Both the position numbers and the translations under genes were made by a program. From Adineta ricciae (lineage: Eukaryota > Rotifera > Eurotatoria > Adinetida > Adinetidae): a stretch of DNA of 64,000 bases. The notes beneath the pieces are model-generated. The model did no database searches and had not been told where the DNA came from. It worked only from the letters and a program-made list of their open reading frames with translations. The stretch is taken from assembly GCA_905250025.1 (NCBI GenBank), contig CAJNOJ010000328.1, positions 20,794 through 84,793 on the forward strand. Reading direction: 5' to 3'. Below, piece by piece: positions 29,329-36,198 of the stretch. Every line of letters begins with the position of its first letter. The stretch's first letter is position 1.

Positions 29329-30336
29329 CTATTTTAAATTTTCAAAATACCATTTGCAAACGAATTCCAATCCTTGCGAAGTATTACATTTCGGTTGGTA
29401 TGATAGAATATTTTTAGCTTTTTCGATAGAAGCTTGAGAATGTGGAATATCTCCCAGTCGTTCAATACCATAGATAGGTTTAATATCAGCAATAATTGGA
29501 TCATAACAAGAAAGATTAGAGCGTAAACTGGTAAATAATTCATTTAATGTTGTTTTTCCGCCAGATGCTACATTGATTATTATATTTATCTGAGTAATCT
29601 TAGGTGAGTTTTCATTTGTATTTAATCGTTCAAGAATAATATTAGTGGAAGTTACCATAGCAAGTTCATTAGCTTGTATAACATTATCAATGTAGGTAAA
29701 ATCTCGAGAATAACTTCCATCACCATTGATTATTGGTCGTTCATGTTTGATCAAACATTTGATAAATAATGGAATCACTGCTGCATAAGAACCATTTGGA
29801 TTTTGTCGTTTACCAAAAACATTAAAATAACGTAATCCAATTGTTTCAATTCCATATAAGTTGGTGAATATTTGTGCATAAAGCTCGTTAACATATTTAG
29901 TAATTGCGTAAGGTGACAATGGTTTACCAATATTTTCCTCAACTTTTGGTAATTCTTTTGAATCTCCATATGTTGATGATGAAGCTGCATAAATAAATCG
30001 TTTTACACCGGCATCGCGTGCAGCAACAAGCATGTTTAAGAAACCATCAATATTTACTGAATTTGTGGTAATAGGATCATCTATTGAGCGTGGTACACTT
30101 CCTAACGCCGCTTGATGAAAAACATAATCAACATTCTGAACGGCTTTTCGACACGTCTCAATATTTCGAATATCGCCTTCAATAAGTTCAAATGATGAAT
30201 TGAGTAAAAACGACTCAATATTATGACGATATCCTGTAGAAAAATTATCTAGACAGATTACTTGATGATTTTGAAGAAAGTATTCACAAAGATTCGAACC
30301 AATAAATCCTGCGCCACCTGTAATCAATATTTTCAT
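29329..30336 (-). CDS. UDP-N-acetylglucosamine C4-epimerase (WbpP/TviC type), bacterial-like
   Basis: Intronless, 335 residues, full length for the family. Extended SDR fold: the NAD-binding GGAGFIGS at residues 7-14, LDNFSTG at 29-35, the SSSTYGD catalytic Ser/Thr region at 119-125, and Tyr143/Lys147 in SPYAITK. The WbpP/TviC hallmark blocks QAALGSVPRS, NVNIDGFLN-like, LRYFNVFGKRQNPNGSYAAVIP and INGDGSYSRDF are all present, which sets it apart from GalE or UDP-glucuronate decarboxylases. It would interconvert UDP-GlcNAc(A) and UDP-GalNAc(A) in the cytosol. It lies 62 bp downstream of the matching dehydrogenase on the same strand, the order seen in bacterial tviB-tviC and wbpO-wbpP clusters. 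Codon use is AT-rich like its neighbours. A CATATTTTAG acceptor-like site ends 11 nt before the ATG. Confidence 0.9.
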   Translation of the reverse strand: MKILITGGAGFIGSNLCEYFLQNHQVICLDNFSTGYRHNIESFLLNSSFELIEGDIRNIETCRKAVQNVDYVFHQAALGSVPRSIDDPITTNSVNIDGFLNMLVAARDAGVKRFIYAASSSTYGDSKELPKVEENIGKPLSPYAITKYVNELYAQIFTNLYGIETIGLRYFNVFGKRQNPNGSYAAVIPLFIKCLIKHERPIINGDGSYSRDFTYIDNVIQANELAMVTSTNIILERLNTNENSPKITQINIIINVASGGKTTLNELFTSLRSNLSCYDPIIADIKPIYGIERLGDIPHSQASIEKAKNILSYQPKCNTSQGLEFVCKWYFENLK

Positions 30337-30398
30337 TTTAAATTAATCTAAAATATGAAGAAGTCATTTTTATTAACAGAAAGAAAAAAATGATAAAA
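30337..30398 (-). promoter_or_regulatory. 62-nt intercistronic spacer with acceptor-like site
   Basis: Reading on the minus strand after the dehydrogenase stop there are pyrimidine-rich runs (TTTTTTTCTTTCTG) and then CTTCATATTTTAG, ending at 30348, 11 nt before the epimerase ATG. This has the form of a 3' splice site with no donor exon, as expected for spliced-leader trans-splicing. There is no room for an ordinary promoter. Confidence 0.4.
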
Positions 30399-31679
30399 TT
30401 ATAATCGTCCATCAACAATATCTTTTGGTAAAATTCCTTTAACATCGTAAAGAACTTTATTAGCGGTTGACATTGAAGAAAAATCATACAAAGAAAATTC
30501 TTGATGAGCTACTGCAATAATAACTGTATCATAATTTTCAATAATTATTTTCTTATTAATCATCTGAAATTCATTTGTAGATTTAAGAGTAATTTTATAT
30601 TCATTATAAACTTTTTCTGAATCTGCCCATGGATCAACAACATCCACGAGACAACCAAATTCTATTAATTTATTAATAATATCAATAACTTTAGAATTTC
30701 GAATATCATGGCAATTTTCTTTAAAAGTTATACCTAAAATTAATATTTTTGCACCATTAATTTGTATATTTTTACGTATCATTAATTTAATAACTTGTTC
30801 AACAATAAAACATCCCATACTATCATTCATGCGACGTGCGCTTGAGACAATTTCTGGATAATAGTTTAATTGACAAGCTTTATGTATTAAATAATATGAG
30901 TCAATACCAATACAATGACCACCAACTAATCCTGGTTCATATGGAATAAAATTCCATTTTGTTCGAGCAGCTTTTAATACTTCATGAGTATCAAGATTCA
31001 TCAATCGAAAAATACGTGTTATTTCATTCATAAGAGCAATATTGACATCACGTTGAACATTTTCAAGCATTTTCGCTGCTTCTGCTACTCGAACAGATGG
31101 TGCTACGTATGTACCTGCTGGAATTATTTCTTGATAAAGTTCATTTATTTCTTGACTAATCGCAGGTGTTGAACCTGAAATAATTTTACAAACATTACTC
31201 AGTTGATGATTTTGATCTCCGGGATTGATACGTTCAGGTGAATATCCACAAAAAAAGTTTTCATTATATTTTAAACCGCTTATTCGTTCTAAAATTGGAA
31301 CACATTCATCTTCTGTTACACCAGGATAAACAGTTGATTCGTATATAACTATATCGTCCTGTTTTAAAATTTTTCCAATCATTTCTGATGATTTCAATAG
31401 ATTTGACAAATCAGGTTGGCGTTGTGCATTAACTGGTGTTGGAACAGCAACTATAAATATTTGCGCCGAACGAAGATCATCTAATGAATAAGAATATTGA
31501 AGAAATTCAACACATTTTAAGTTTTCGCTTGAAAATTCATTTGTAGAATCATGACCAAGTTTAAGTTCATTTATTCGATCTTTGTTAACATCGAAACCAA
31601 TTGTCGGACGATATTTTCCGAATTCAATACTTAAAGGAAGTCCAACATAACCTAGACCTATGACAGCAATAGTTTTCAT
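30399..31679 (-). CDS. UDP-N-acetyl-D-hexosamine 6-dehydrogenase (WbpO/TviB type), bacterial-like
   Basis: Intronless, 426 residues, full length for the UDP-glucose/GDP-mannose dehydrogenase superfamily. It has the Rossmann GLGYVGLP at residues 8-15, VPTPV at 79-83, YESTVYPG at 113-120, PERINPGD at 148-155, the AAKMLENVQRDVNIALMNE block with Lys203, and the catalytic Cys256 in GGHCIGID. The C-terminal domain has GITFKENCHDIRNSK and a VDPWAD block. The pattern fits the bacterial UDP-GlcNAc/UDP-GalNAc dehydrogenases rather than animal UGDH. It would oxidise UDP-GlcNAc to UDP-GlcNAcA using NAD+, feeding the epimerase just downstream. TTTTTTTAG abuts the ATG, a possible trans-splice acceptor. Horizontal origin is inferred from the absence of introns, the family and the gene order. 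Confidence 0.9.
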   Translation of the reverse strand: MKTIAVIGLGYVGLPLSIEFGKYRPTIGFDVNKDRINELKLGHDSTNEFSSENLKCVEFLQYSYSLDDLRSAQIFIVAVPTPVNAQRQPDLSNLLKSSEMIGKILKQDDIVIYESTVYPGVTEDECVPILERISGLKYNENFFCGYSPERINPGDQNHQLSNVCKIISGSTPAISQEINELYQEIIPAGTYVAPSVRVAEAAKMLENVQRDVNIALMNEITRIFRLMNLDTHEVLKAARTKWNFIPYEPGLVGGHCIGIDSYYLIHKACQLNYYPEIVSSARRMNDSMGCFIVEQVIKLMIRKNIQINGAKILILGITFKENCHDIRNSKVIDIINKLIEFGCLVDVVDPWADSEKVYNEYKITLKSTNEFQMINKKIIIENYDTVIIAVAHQEFSLYDFSSMSTANKVLYDVKGILPKDIVDGRL

Positions 31680-31905
31680 CTAAAAAAATGTCGAACCATC
31701 ATATTATATTTCCTTAATTCAATGAACCCTTGAGGAATCTTTCGCAGCTTTTAACTCGACTACAATAACACTCACTAGAAAATTTTACAGTATAGTAAAG
31801 AAGAAGAATCTATCTGTGATGTATGTAGCTTTATTGTCGATAAAACACCATCATCCAAATCAAACCACACGTATATATACATGTAGATAATATATGTGTG
31901 AGGAT
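31680..31905. promoter_or_regulatory. Upstream flank of the sugar-nucleotide gene pair
   Basis: The only candidate promoter region for both genes. AT-rich. TTTTTTTAG ends directly before the dehydrogenase ATG (minus strand). No recognised element. Confidence 0.25.
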
Positions 31906-34393
31906 GGAAGAGGGAAAGCATGGAATGAGCGAGGAGTGAAGAGGAGAGAATGGAATGAAAGAGATGTAAGTATCTCCAGAAGGAGAAGAATCATGGACGA
32001 ACTCCATAACACTATCGAAATAATACTCATTAACTCGTATTCCTATCACATGGATGATTCAAGGATACGTTTTATTTAATAAGGAAAACAAAAAAATATA
32101 TTACAATGACGCAGAACGAAGCAAACAGGATGGTTGGATAATTATACGATATTGATATACGCTATTACCACTGAGTGATAATATTTTTTTTCTCGAGTCA
32201 ACAGAGTACGATATATGCACTCATTCAAGAGTATTCTTCTTATCAATCTATTTTGAGTATTAGTATTCATTTTATACCCTCATTTCAATAGAGGGCATTC
32301 GATTACATCGAAAGAATATGGAGACAAATAACTTGGTTACACGTGTTTCATCAATATGATAAGGTGTTTCGGTAAAAATCGTTCGACTCAATGAGTGCAA
32401 AGACGGTTATATGGCTATGATTGGTGCAGTTGTGCTATGAATTGTCATAAAAATAGTTCTTTTTGAATATAAACTTCATCCATAATGTCTTTGTGAAACA
32501 AGGTTGTATTTAACCTTTTGTAGTGCGTATTTCGTAGTCCTTGACAGACGTTGTTGAGAAGAAATAATGCACTCTTCGTTCTGGCTAAAACTAATAGGTT
32601 TTTCTTTTTTGAAAATCTCAACGAAATGAAACTTTGTATTAAATCTGCTCTTATGAAACCACTGTTTCTCAAAATATATTTCGTAAAATAACTATGAAAA
32701 ATAATAATCACATATTTTCAAAATCTTGTCTGATGCAAAGAAATGCGACACTAACTCGAGTCGTATACCTCGTACCAGAAGCGTTTCTCATCAGAGTCAC
32801 TCATTCAATATTATCATCTAATTACGTCTTTGATGTTCTTGAACCTGACTTTCATAAGTGTATATTAAGAAAATTCGATGTTAGATTATAAATCAAAAAA
32901 CAAATTAACTCATATTCTTTTGGATACTAGCCAATTTGCTAGTCTCGACTTTTGCTTCTCAGCAATCGATCAAATATCAACATATATGTAAGTTTAATTG
33001 ATGTGCTTTTGAAAATCAGTTAATAAGAGAAATGCAGAGAGTTTAATTTCGCCGACGCGTTTCGGGTTATTTATTAAAATTTAAACACTCATCAGGGCTC
33101 TGCATAAGCACCAAATTGAAAAAATGTGTTCGAGAAAGGAAAAAAAACAGAAGAAGGCGCATTATTAATTTAGTAGTTTGAACAAACTATCTTGGCTTGG
33201 TTTCAAATCAAATATTAATGTTACACTATGAGTAAATAAGAAAAATTTTTTAAATCACTAAATGTACAGATAGTTGATCTAATGTATTTGATGGTTTCGG
33301 TTAATTGGCCACGTGCCAAACGATATGTTGAGATTTTCAAATTACTGGCTGTTTTCATTTTTAATGAATAGCAATAATTAAATATAAACCATTCACCGAA
33401 CCAAATCTTCGTGCAATTTAATAGTAATTCAAGAAATCGAATTTTGGAATCCGAAGTAACAATGTAAGAAGGTATTTATCCTTGATCAAAATAAATTCGA
33501 ATAACATACCAATTTGTCTAGTAAATTTTTCAGTCCATGTATGTCTACTGTTTGAAATCCAACGGCTTGGAAAAGTTGGGAAAATGACCAATGATAAAAA
33601 TTCATAATATTTATCTAATAATAGTAAATATGAAACCGACTGTTTAGTAAAATCCAAATCATATTGATAATAGAGCCAGTTTGAAAGATCAGCAATCATA
33701 AAAAGTTGGCAAAATGCCAAATGATATGTGTGACTTCAATGTTTTCAAATAATTGGCCATGGAACATTAATATCAATTGTTTATTATTCTTTATCCACGA
33801 GCATCGAATTTAGAGATTCTGGACGATTGGCAGAATGCCAAATGATCAAAGAAATGTATTTTTGTAAATAACGTGAAACGCTTTCAGCATAATACCCTAC
33901 GGGATTAAAAATGTGAAACGCGATCGACCTGCTACAATAAGGATAATAATGATTTGTACGTAATATTTTTGTTTGATATTGTTGATTGAGAAACGCAGGA
34001 AACATTCTATACGGGTGTTGTTCAAAGAAAATCGTTTAGTTTGAATATAGGACGTTTGATTTATTGAAATTTGAAAGGCTGAAGACGGGATGTTTCATTG
34101 GAGATAAAAGATGATTCAACTGTTTAGTCAATTGAGAGAGAACGGATTTCTGTTTCGAGTTTGATATTTTATTATCAAGAAAAAACGAAACGATTATTTA
34201 AGGAGATTAGAGAAGCTCGAAAAATGTTTCAACGAATAATTGTTTTAGATTTGAATACTATGGATTTCAATATTTATGACAGTTTTATTTTTTGAATTTT
34301 ACATAATTGAAAGACTAATTGATGATAATGTTAATAAAACTGATTCTTTTCCCAACAAATCTTCTTCTGATAAATGAGTGTGATTGCATTGTT

Positions 34394-34693
34394 CTAATAG
34401 TTGTTTGATTTTTGTTTTTCAATGATCAATTCCACCGATTTATCATCAGATGTATTAATAGTTTCTTTCAATCGATTCTCTTCGACATCGTTTTTGGTGA
34501 TATATCTCGTCTTACATCGCTTACATTTCACACTTCTTTCAGTTATTTCAACTTCTTTAGAATAACACTTCGCACACACCGGTTGTTGTTTAATTAATCC
34601 GATTGAAACGATGTTGCCAATTACATTTATATCGTGATCAAATTCAACAACTTCAGACGTTTGCACCCGAGCTGAGCACAGGACAGGATTCAT
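34394..34693 (-). CDS. Short protein with RPA-like zinc ribbon
   Basis: 99 residues. The centre has CAKC...CKRC separated by 13 residues, followed by RYITKND, resembling the zinc ribbon in the C-terminal OB fold of replication protein A subunit 1 and the RPA-like proteins encoded by some mobile elements. The preceding DHDINVIGNIVSIGLIKQQPV fits an OB strand. It is far shorter than RPA1, so it is a fragment or an element remnant. Most of the frame is absent from copy B of the block. Confidence 0.3.
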   Translation of the reverse strand: MNPVLCSARVQTSEVVEFDHDINVIGNIVSIGLIKQQPVCAKCYSKEVEITERSVKCKRCKTRYITKNDVEENRLKETINTSDDKSVELIIEKQKSNNY

Positions 34694-35021
34694 CGCCCGT
34701 CCTGCCGTGCGGCATGATAAGTTGTTACAAATTTTACTTTAAAGCTCCTACACGACTTCTAGTAATTCATAGCGACCAATATTCCTATTTCTACCATAGA
34801 GGTCACTCACAGACAGTCACATACTCTGTGACTATAATTCGTCGAGATGCACACGAGTGTTGCATCATTTACAGAAACAAACTAACTATACGTTAAATGT
34901 TAAATATAGACTGATAATAGTCAACAGTCGACTATTCCTCTCGTCCATATGTACAAGTATTCCTTTACAACACGTCGATTGTTTGTTTTCAGATTTGTAT
35001 TAAATTCAAAGAAAGTGAATT

Positions 35022-35245
35022 ATGGATGTAACATATGCCTCTTCATTAAATGAATTTCCTTTGAATTCGGAAAAAAAATCAAACAATTACTCCGATCAGA
35101 TGTTAAACTTTACAAAGTAATAAAAAAACGAATCATCATCTGGAGCAACGTGGTGGAACATATTTGGATTTCCTGCTAAATTAAATGAAAATAATGAATA
35201 TCAACGAATCGTCGGACATGCTAGTTGTTTTAAGTGTTTTCAAAC
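35022..35245 (+). pseudogene. 5' fragment of hAT transposase gene
   Basis: Starts ATGGATGTAACATATGCC and matches 38895-39107 of the longer hAT gene. One A is missing in the A-run near 35070, shifting the frame, and there is an indel near 35172. Homology stops exactly where a telomere-like G/T tract begins (35246). Confidence 0.7.
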
Positions 35246-35405
35246 GGGTGAGGGTGAGGGTGTGGGTGTGTATATGTATAAGTAAAACTAAATCTATTTC
35301 TATTCCTATCTACTCATTTGTTATAAGTGTGATATCGGTATCTATTTATATTCGAATTGATACTAGCCTGTTGGGGGTCGACTTATAATATAAGTCGAAT
35401 TAGGC
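35246..35405 (+). repeat. Half of an inverted-repeat element starting with telomere-like tract
   Basis: Begins GGTGAGGGTGAGGGTGTGGG and continues for about 135 bp almost identical to 51476-51616, including the hairpin GACTTATAATATAAGTC and the end GAATTAGGCATCTCATG. It interrupts the hAT fragment. Confidence 0.65.
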
Positions 35406-35967
35406 ATCTCATGTAGAAAGCACATATTATGTGCAATTACTTCTGTCTTCGATATTATTTAATCATTTATTGAGTAGTGAGATGCTTTTCGTTGAAACAA
35501 TCAAGACACAAAAATTTCGCACAATAAGGGCAAAAGGTTTTAACTTTCTCTGGTGTCGCGTGGCTAATCCAGAAAACTAACTCCACTAAGTGTGCTAGTG
35601 TTCTCTTCTGTATCGTTTACTTCTAATGACATGTCAACAAGTCGGAAACTTCCGCTATTTTTATACGTAAAACTACAGATAGAAGGATATGTAAGAAAAA
35701 AATTGAAAACTTCGCTCTGACTCGTAATATTACATGCCATGATATGGAGAAGAGAACAGCGACTCACCCATATATAATATCGACAAGACACTATGTGCAT
35801 TTATTAGAAGTTAATTATTGAGAAAAATGAATATTTCCAAGATTTTCTCCATGAAAACTGAATCGTGCTGAATGTGTTAATATACAAAATTATGACAACA
35901 CGTAATAAAGATATATAAGAACGAACAAATAATCACAACCTATAACTCTGTGTTTTACTGAAATAAA
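35406..35967. other. Unique stretch between repeat and receptor fragment
   Basis: No gene recognised. From about 35876 it matches the 3' flank of the receptor gene at 41775. Confidence 0.4.
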
Positions 35968-36198
35968 TCAATTTCTTCGTGATGTAATTTGACGAGTTAT
36001 AACTAGTGGTTGGTCTGTTCGTTTAGCAGTGAATAATTTCATAAATTCGTAACGAAACAGCTTACTCGATAAAATGAAAAGATAAAAACTTAAACATGGA
36101 ACTGCAAGAGAAATCAGACCAGCAATATTATAGAATAAATTGTCTTTGGCTGCCTGAAGAGCATCGATTATTATATTTGACCGTACTGATGTATAAAT
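35968..36198 (-). pseudogene. 3' fragment of rhodopsin-like receptor
   Basis: Encodes the last 76 or so residues (IYTSVRSNIII... to TSRRN) of the receptor at 41866-42995, with one residue difference noted near the end. It stops abruptly at a single N (36199). The rest of the gene is absent, so it is either a truncated duplicate or a contig end. Confidence 0.8.

Follow-up and report, generated by a model that had tools for sequence, protein, structure and literature searches.

How do two neighbouring bacterial-type genes come to lie operon-fashion in the genome of an animal, and did they arrive there together? The question is raised by a locus of the rotifer Adineta ricciae (assembly GCA_905250025.1), analysed here in a 64,000-nucleotide stretch of contig CAJNOJ010000328.1 (the window; C328:20794-84793 of a 130.46-Mb genome in 1033 contigs), to whose own numbering plain coordinates refer. 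A gene for a nucleotide-sugar dehydrogenase (DH) is followed on the same strand by one for a UDP-sugar epimerase (EP), and an initial annotation had proposed that a whole bacterial two-step pathway was transferred at once. The DH-EP pair is real, bacterial in kind and operon-like. Transfer as a complete operon is the weaker reading of its origin and assembly inside the animal the better one: we consider it reasonably probable that the locus is a eukaryotic dicistron resolved by spliced-leader (SL) trans-splicing, with an exchangeable second gene, put together from bacterial-type genes within the rotifer lineage. The pair has the following parts:

30399 to 31679, minus strand: DH, a TviB/WbpO-type UDP-N-acetylglucosamine (UDP-GlcNAc) 6-dehydrogenase of 426 aa, intronless, first cistron (by ORF, profile matches and tree)
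30337 to 30398, minus strand: DH-EP spacer of 62 bp, with 61-bp counterparts after the DH copies of contigs C621 and C246
29329 to 30336, minus strand: EP, a TviC/WbpP-type UDP-sugar 4-epimerase of 335 aa, intronless, insertion-type, second cistron (by ORF, profile matches, alignment and tree)

Both open reading frames (ORFs) start with ATG and run uninterrupted on the minus strand, which bears out the arrangement first annotated, two intact, intronless genes 62 bp apart in the order DH then EP. All three nucleotide-sugar dehydrogenase (UDP-glucose/GDP-mannose dehydrogenase) Pfam domains were found in DH above cut-off, and the NDP-sugDHase subfamily model TIGR03026 was passed (375 bits, cut-off 189.8). 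The top curated family of DH was TviB (NF011729; 519.1 bits); since DH misses the equivalog cut-off of 592 although this is its best-scoring model, we regard it as TviB-like rather than certified TviB. EP scored highest with TviC (NF011728; 383.3 bits, below the equivalog cut-off of 760), and its closest solved structure was WbpP (E 3.6e-105). The catalytic residues listed in the initial annotation are in place: Cys256 of DH lies within GLVGGHCIGID, and Tyr143 and Lys147 of EP are invariant in a 15-protein alignment. The WbpP signature residues G102, S103, V104, Y166, N195, A209 and S306 (PMC12820599; this and the other papers cited by PMC number are quoted from partial texts) are retained in EP at 7/7 aligned positions (G79, S80, V81, Y143, N172, A186, S300). 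In PMC3682973, gnaB is recognised by its adjacency to a WbpO homologue, and EP lies 62 bp behind DH; the same source describes WbpO then WbpP acting in the order UDP-GlcNAc to UDP-N-acetylglucosaminuronic acid (UDP-GlcNAcA) to UDP-N-acetylgalactosaminuronic acid (UDP-GalNAcA). By homology, the DH-EP pair is predicted to make UDP-GalNAcA: DH would oxidise UDP-GlcNAc to UDP-GlcNAcA, EP would convert this to UDP-GalNAcA, and a putative glycosyltransferase would use the product, each step being assigned from the enzyme families.

DH matched bacterial Cap5O-type dehydrogenases with E 1.5e-48, compared with E ~1e-8 to 1e-10 for UDP-glucose 6-dehydrogenase chains, among which we take the human enzymes to be. 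PF00984 was found in two pieces with a short gap at loci on C95, C14 and C71, which we read as probable native intron-split UGDH genes; the window DH is one frame. In a quick 94-row tree (50/119 other listed DH proteins taken), DH, its two further copies and six unnamed database proteins formed a group of nine rows with a Shimodaira-Hasegawa-like approximate likelihood ratio (SH-aLRT) support of 94, and P0004 came next at 99; in a likewise quick 73-row set, from which 21/94 rows had been dropped, the nine-row group had 95. DH matches of <380 aa or <40% identity, such as the far-upstream fragment in L074 and the 31-33% identity matches in L095, L136 and L138, were excluded from the counts. A quick 117-row EP tree (51/119 other listed EP proteins taken; EPs of <46% identity and L099, with an internal stop, left out) grouped EP with its Adineta vaga counterpart and three unnamed proteins (99), and placed this rotifer group with the insertion-type EPs described below (55 rows, 99). 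The annotation that both genes are bacterial in kind is supported. Vertical origin from animal UGDH and GALE was ruled out: TviB and TviC are the best families, DH matches Cap5O far better than the animal-type dehydrogenases, WbpP is the closest solved structure of EP, and the split UGDH loci lie elsewhere. Viral carriage was also set aside, the best 80 EP-like loci of a viral collection having <=52% identity.

EP is present in more than one rotifer assembly. Its A. vaga counterpart (I4U23_022180) is 95% identical and sits on a 16.9-Mb contig, and a second A. ricciae copy on contig C271 has 98% protein identity, with flanking DNA 91-96% identical. C271 starts inside EP, so the DH side of the other haplotype is missing from the assembly; a DNA search for the second allele returned the window itself, repeats, local duplications and two DH paralogs. 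No separate A. vaga DH was found among the best 120 matches, but a protein clustered with that of the window would not have appeared there, so this does not show its absence. The EP copies of C328 and C271 show 11 synonymous and 5 nonsynonymous differences (ratio of nonsynonymous to synonymous rates, dN/dS, 0.12) and are under purifying selection, as are the DH copies of C621 and C246 (39 synonymous and 33 nonsynonymous changes, dN/dS 0.21). The GC contents of EP (0.318) and DH (0.297) are both near that of the surroundings. As first annotated, the pair sits among animal-type genes and transposons: six of 10 other long window ORFs scanned against Pfam matched such families (a cathepsin, an LDLRa-repeat protein with a seven-transmembrane (7tm) domain, two rhodopsin-type 7tm proteins, hAT and a DDE_Tnp_1_7 transposase), the three 7tm matches being under the gathering score, and four were without a match. 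Four shorter ORFs close to the pair were without any match as well. Stretches upstream of the pair (window 31937-36000 and C328:56996-59901) recur at 88-93% identity within the contig, a few kb off, and shorter pieces of them, repeats or local duplications, also occur in many contigs.

Evidence for an operon built in the animal comes from two further DH copies, at C621:5905-7167 and on C246, which are 58% identical to the window DH (dS 1.04, dN 0.31) and 92% to each other. Behind each of them stands not EP but a LamG-type gene (PF13385), whose ATG lies 61 bp after DH. The three spacers all contain TATTTTAGATT followed by 7-8 nt and the next ATG. This block is 11/11 identical, and the first 43 nt of the window spacer match at only 18/43 (C621) and 21/43 (C246) positions; the longest identical run of the spacers, 12, was attained by 11/100000 shuffles. 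The candidate signals in the window are as follows:

31680 to 31688, minus strand: TTTTTTTAG, abutting the DH ATG, candidate trans-splice acceptor (by sequence, with counterparts at the other copies)
30369 to 30374, minus strand: AATAAA, possible poly(A) signal of the DH mRNA (by motif)
30345 to 30355, minus strand: TATTTTAGATT block, candidate trans-splice acceptor with its AG at 30348-30349, 11 nt before the EP ATG (identical in three spacers)

Directly before the DH ATG stand TTTTTTTAG in the window, TTATTTTAG at C621 and TTATTTCAG at C246, while the 40 nt upstream of DH match at 19/40 positions between the window and C621. By chance, TTTTAG would occur within 20 nt in 1-2% of such sequences. 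Those marks of an SL-resolved operon that DNA can show were found at the pair: both genes on one strand, a 62-bp spacer, and TATTTTAG 11 nt before the ATG, kept at three loci. The genome also contains 46 sites with <=3 mismatches to the rotifer spliced leader (sequence from PMC3795323), 41 of them with one mismatch, and zero sites genome-wide for the reversed leader pattern; a GTAA donor follows the leader at the six loci whose context was printed. The SL genes often form divergent pairs ~150 bp apart and are clustered (C6, C8, C43, C77, C79, C99, C146). In the partial texts consulted, A. ricciae is listed as trans-splicing with operons 'ND' for rotifers (PMC2481426), rotifer operons are 'not reported' (PMC7986045), and rotifers receive a passing mention among the lineages that have trans-splicing and operonic transcription (PMC12460157).

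The other DH copies and their partner are located as follows:

L017:7396-8658: C246 DH copy
L016:4998-5843: LamG-type gene behind the C621 DH
L016:2729-3511: second, partial LamG-type copy on C621

The LamG-type gene is intact at C621 and broken after ~55 residues at C246, and its start resembles a signal peptide by eye. The C246 DH has Ser at the catalytic Cys position; with the broken LamG ORF behind it, this looks like a decaying or repurposed copy. A fourth LamG copy (C846:1749-2543, 74%) lies on a contig without a DH match. Among named bacteria, the best relatives of LamG come mostly from Paenibacillus (57-64%); the matches also include proteins of A. ricciae and Rotaria. Equal longest-contig figures (7,089 bases), taken alone, suggest that a database DH (P0007) and LamG (P0262) are linked in another organism.

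Whether a ready-made bacterial operon was transferred was judged from the relatives of EP and from gene order in bacteria. EP carries an insertion of 15-16 residues that is common to the rotifer-type EPs and 50 other rows. In a careful 76-row tree with the insertion columns omitted (12 long-branch rows dropped, 22/51 P rows kept), 26/26 insertion-type rows formed one clade (100/99.8), and EP falls in a Bacteroidales clade marked by this insertion. At the three insertion-type EPs with a readable neighbourhood (L059 of Bacteroides gallinarum, L062 and L068), no DH lay within 7 kb in 3/3 cases, DH being elsewhere in each of these genomes; among ten neighbours scored, some were glycosyltransferase-like, one was asparagine synthase-like and several were without a match. 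A further EP match in B. gallinarum, shorter by 45 bp, does lie beside a DH, in the order EP>DH. Bacterial loci with both genes (n = 41) had EP>DH in 15 cases, DH>EP in 25 and opposite strands in 1, and those with an EP identity of >=59% had EP>DH in 14/14. In 395 Bacteroidia genomes, 42 EP matches were found in 41 genomes, and at least 17 (a lower bound, matched up by eye from the DH and EP lists) had a listed DH no more than 2.3 kb away on the same strand of their contig, 15 as EP>DH and 2 as DH>EP. An approximately unbiased (AU) test rejected uniting the rotifer EPs with the EP>DH-type EPs (p = 0.0013); the AU p of ~1e-75 for uniting them with all DH>EP-type EPs is given no weight, because that group is itself no clade. 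The DHs nearest the rotifer's in the class sample (L259, L260 and L262, of Bacteroidia G224, G023 and G318) have a short-chain dehydrogenase/reductase other than EP, ~30% like it, no more than a few bases behind them. On these comparisons we favour separate donors for EP and DH. The transfer of a whole two-step operon is therefore not sustained: the EP clade is unpaired (3/3), the nearest paired EPs are in the other order (14/14, and 15/17 Bacteroidia pairs), and the same DH and spacer precede a different bacterial-like gene at two other loci. The phylogeny that the initial annotation had asked for came out in part as expected, both genes being bacterial in kind; EP joins unpaired EPs, and DH gives a borderline test (below).

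For a dicistron assembled within the rotifer, we envisage a single transcript that would begin upstream of DH; the spliced leader would be added at the acceptor before DH and at that 11 nt before EP, giving two capped mRNAs. EP would derive from a Bacteroidales-type gene that had no neighbouring DH and became attached, within the rotifer, to the spacer behind DH, and LamG, with its Paenibacillus relatives, would have been joined likewise at the other DH copies. A number of observations weigh against this reading. The DH-EP junction is present on a single contig, C271 gives no second confirmation of the linkage since it starts inside EP, and the second DH allele was not found by DNA search (40/262 candidates scored). 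AATAAA was not found inside the C621 and C246 spacers, a looser acceptor pattern would occur by chance in 4-6% of such sequences, and, the three DHs being homologous, their shared acceptors are not independent events. The context of insertion-type EPs was readable at 3 loci only, 47 further rows being without one. Near-adjacent DH>EP order exists in Bacteroidia (G317 and G152; L261, where a 56% DH directly precedes a 56% EP), and uniting the rotifer DHs with those from EP>DH loci was not rejected at 0.05 (AU p = 0.058), which makes a separate origin of DH less firm than that of EP. EP residue 261, in the column of WbpP Arg268, is Lys, not Arg. Finally, the operon reading is drawn from the DNA sequence.

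Some of these points would be expected had the DH-EP operon moved whole from an unsampled bacterial donor and gained its acceptors later, the C621 and C246 copies then having lost EP and gained LamG. The short-gap DH>EP order of 25/41 bacterial loci, 2/17 Bacteroidia pairs and L261, and the borderline DH test, are compatible with this. We nonetheless judge such a history unlikely: besides the unpaired EP clade and the EP>DH order of its nearest paired relatives, the EPs of L261 and of other DH-bearing loci are not insertion-type where typed, and LamG, of different bacterial affinity, occupies the same slot. Bacterial contamination or an assembly chimera, with which a junction seen on a single contig would agree, is far less credible still. 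EP is also found in A. vaga and, with syntenic flanks, on C271; the neighbours include animal-type genes and transposons, the GC of DH and EP is near that of the surroundings, and the spacer follows, as far as the start of EP, the pattern seen behind the two other DHs. On the strength of the A. vaga ortholog, the C271 copy and the neighbouring genes, we rule contamination out, and the bacterial contaminant contig against which the initial annotation had cautioned is not what we see.

Two further alternatives concern how the pair works. DH and EP could be mere neighbours with their own starts, the acceptor upstream of DH belonging to a 5'-UTR intron and EP perhaps being poorly expressed. The acceptor before DH could indeed serve a cis intron, and the spacer AATAAA is not common to the other DH copies. 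Against this stand a gene separation of merely 62 bp, an acceptor block kept across three loci when the remaining spacer is not, and the few nonsynonymous changes between EP copies, and we hold it to be quite improbable. EP could also act on UDP-GlcNAc/UDP-GalNAc instead of the acid, in which case DH and EP would not form one pathway. The Arg268 column is Arg in 36/39 same-strand DH-paired EPs and in 13/22 EPs without the insertion and without a counted nearby DH, compared with Asn in 50/50 non-rotifer insertion-type EPs, and some insertion-type proteins carry the JGI label UDP-GlcNAc 4-epimerase. However, in the five rotifer-type EPs the residue is K, Q, Q, R and R, never Asn, nothing in this analysis establishes a role for Arg268, and EP stands directly behind a WbpO/TviB-type DH, like the clade B (gnaB) genes beside theirs (PMC3682973). 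The rotifer EP may have changed substrate after joining DH, or may not act on the acid; we see the latter as somewhat unlikely.

The pair resembles the gnaA-gnaB modules (wbpO-wbpP of Pseudomonas aeruginosa O6, tviB-tviC of Salmonella Typhi) in enzyme families, strand, DH before EP, short gap and all seven WbpP signature residues. It differs in its animal host, in missing both equivalog cut-offs, in having acceptors before both genes, in an insertion-type EP with no DH-paired bacterial example among the loci examined, and in a DH that occurs with a second kind of partner as well. The closest precedent for a downstream cistron of transferred origin in an SL-resolved operon is RFC140-flp of Hydra (PMC3273482), in which a horizontally acquired, intronless second cistron likewise lies behind a trans-splice acceptor of an animal operon. 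Hydra, where trans-splicing was demonstrated, has a gene of its own, RFC140, in first place and 417 nt between stop and acceptor. The rotifer pair has 51 nt there, consists of two bacterial-type cistrons and begins with a gene that occurs again before a different partner; as an operon it is predicted from DNA. Same-strand genes, short spacers and SL genes in the genome are shared with the SL-resolved operons of chaetognaths and nematodes (PMC12460157, PMC2481426), for which the cited texts offer in rotifers only the 'ND', the 'not reported' (PMC7986045) and the passing mention quoted above. As for the bdelloid horizontally acquired genes of PMC5916493, bacterial-type genes are linked to metazoan genes; that source, as far as quoted, assesses them gene by gene, whereas the pathway pair described here shares its spacer with other pairs. 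Among the top papers that our literature searches listed, none described the DH-EP pair or an operon of bacterial genes in a rotifer.

We suggest tentatively that DH with its spacer is an expression module, whose ready-made trans-splice acceptor could make newly arrived bacterial genes expressible at once; the joining of EP and LamG would then have built new operons in the animal from genes of different bacteria, including a complete two-step sugar-nucleotide pathway. If true, this predicts in an animal the sugar nucleotide UDP-GalNAcA, which to our knowledge is not known from animals. Rotifers, for which the texts quoted give operons as 'ND' (PMC2481426) or 'not reported' (PMC7986045), would also gain a candidate operon. 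The animal would have built an operon for a bacterial pathway out of separate pieces, and docking behind an existing spliced-leader acceptor would be a concrete route by which bacterial genes become usable in an animal.

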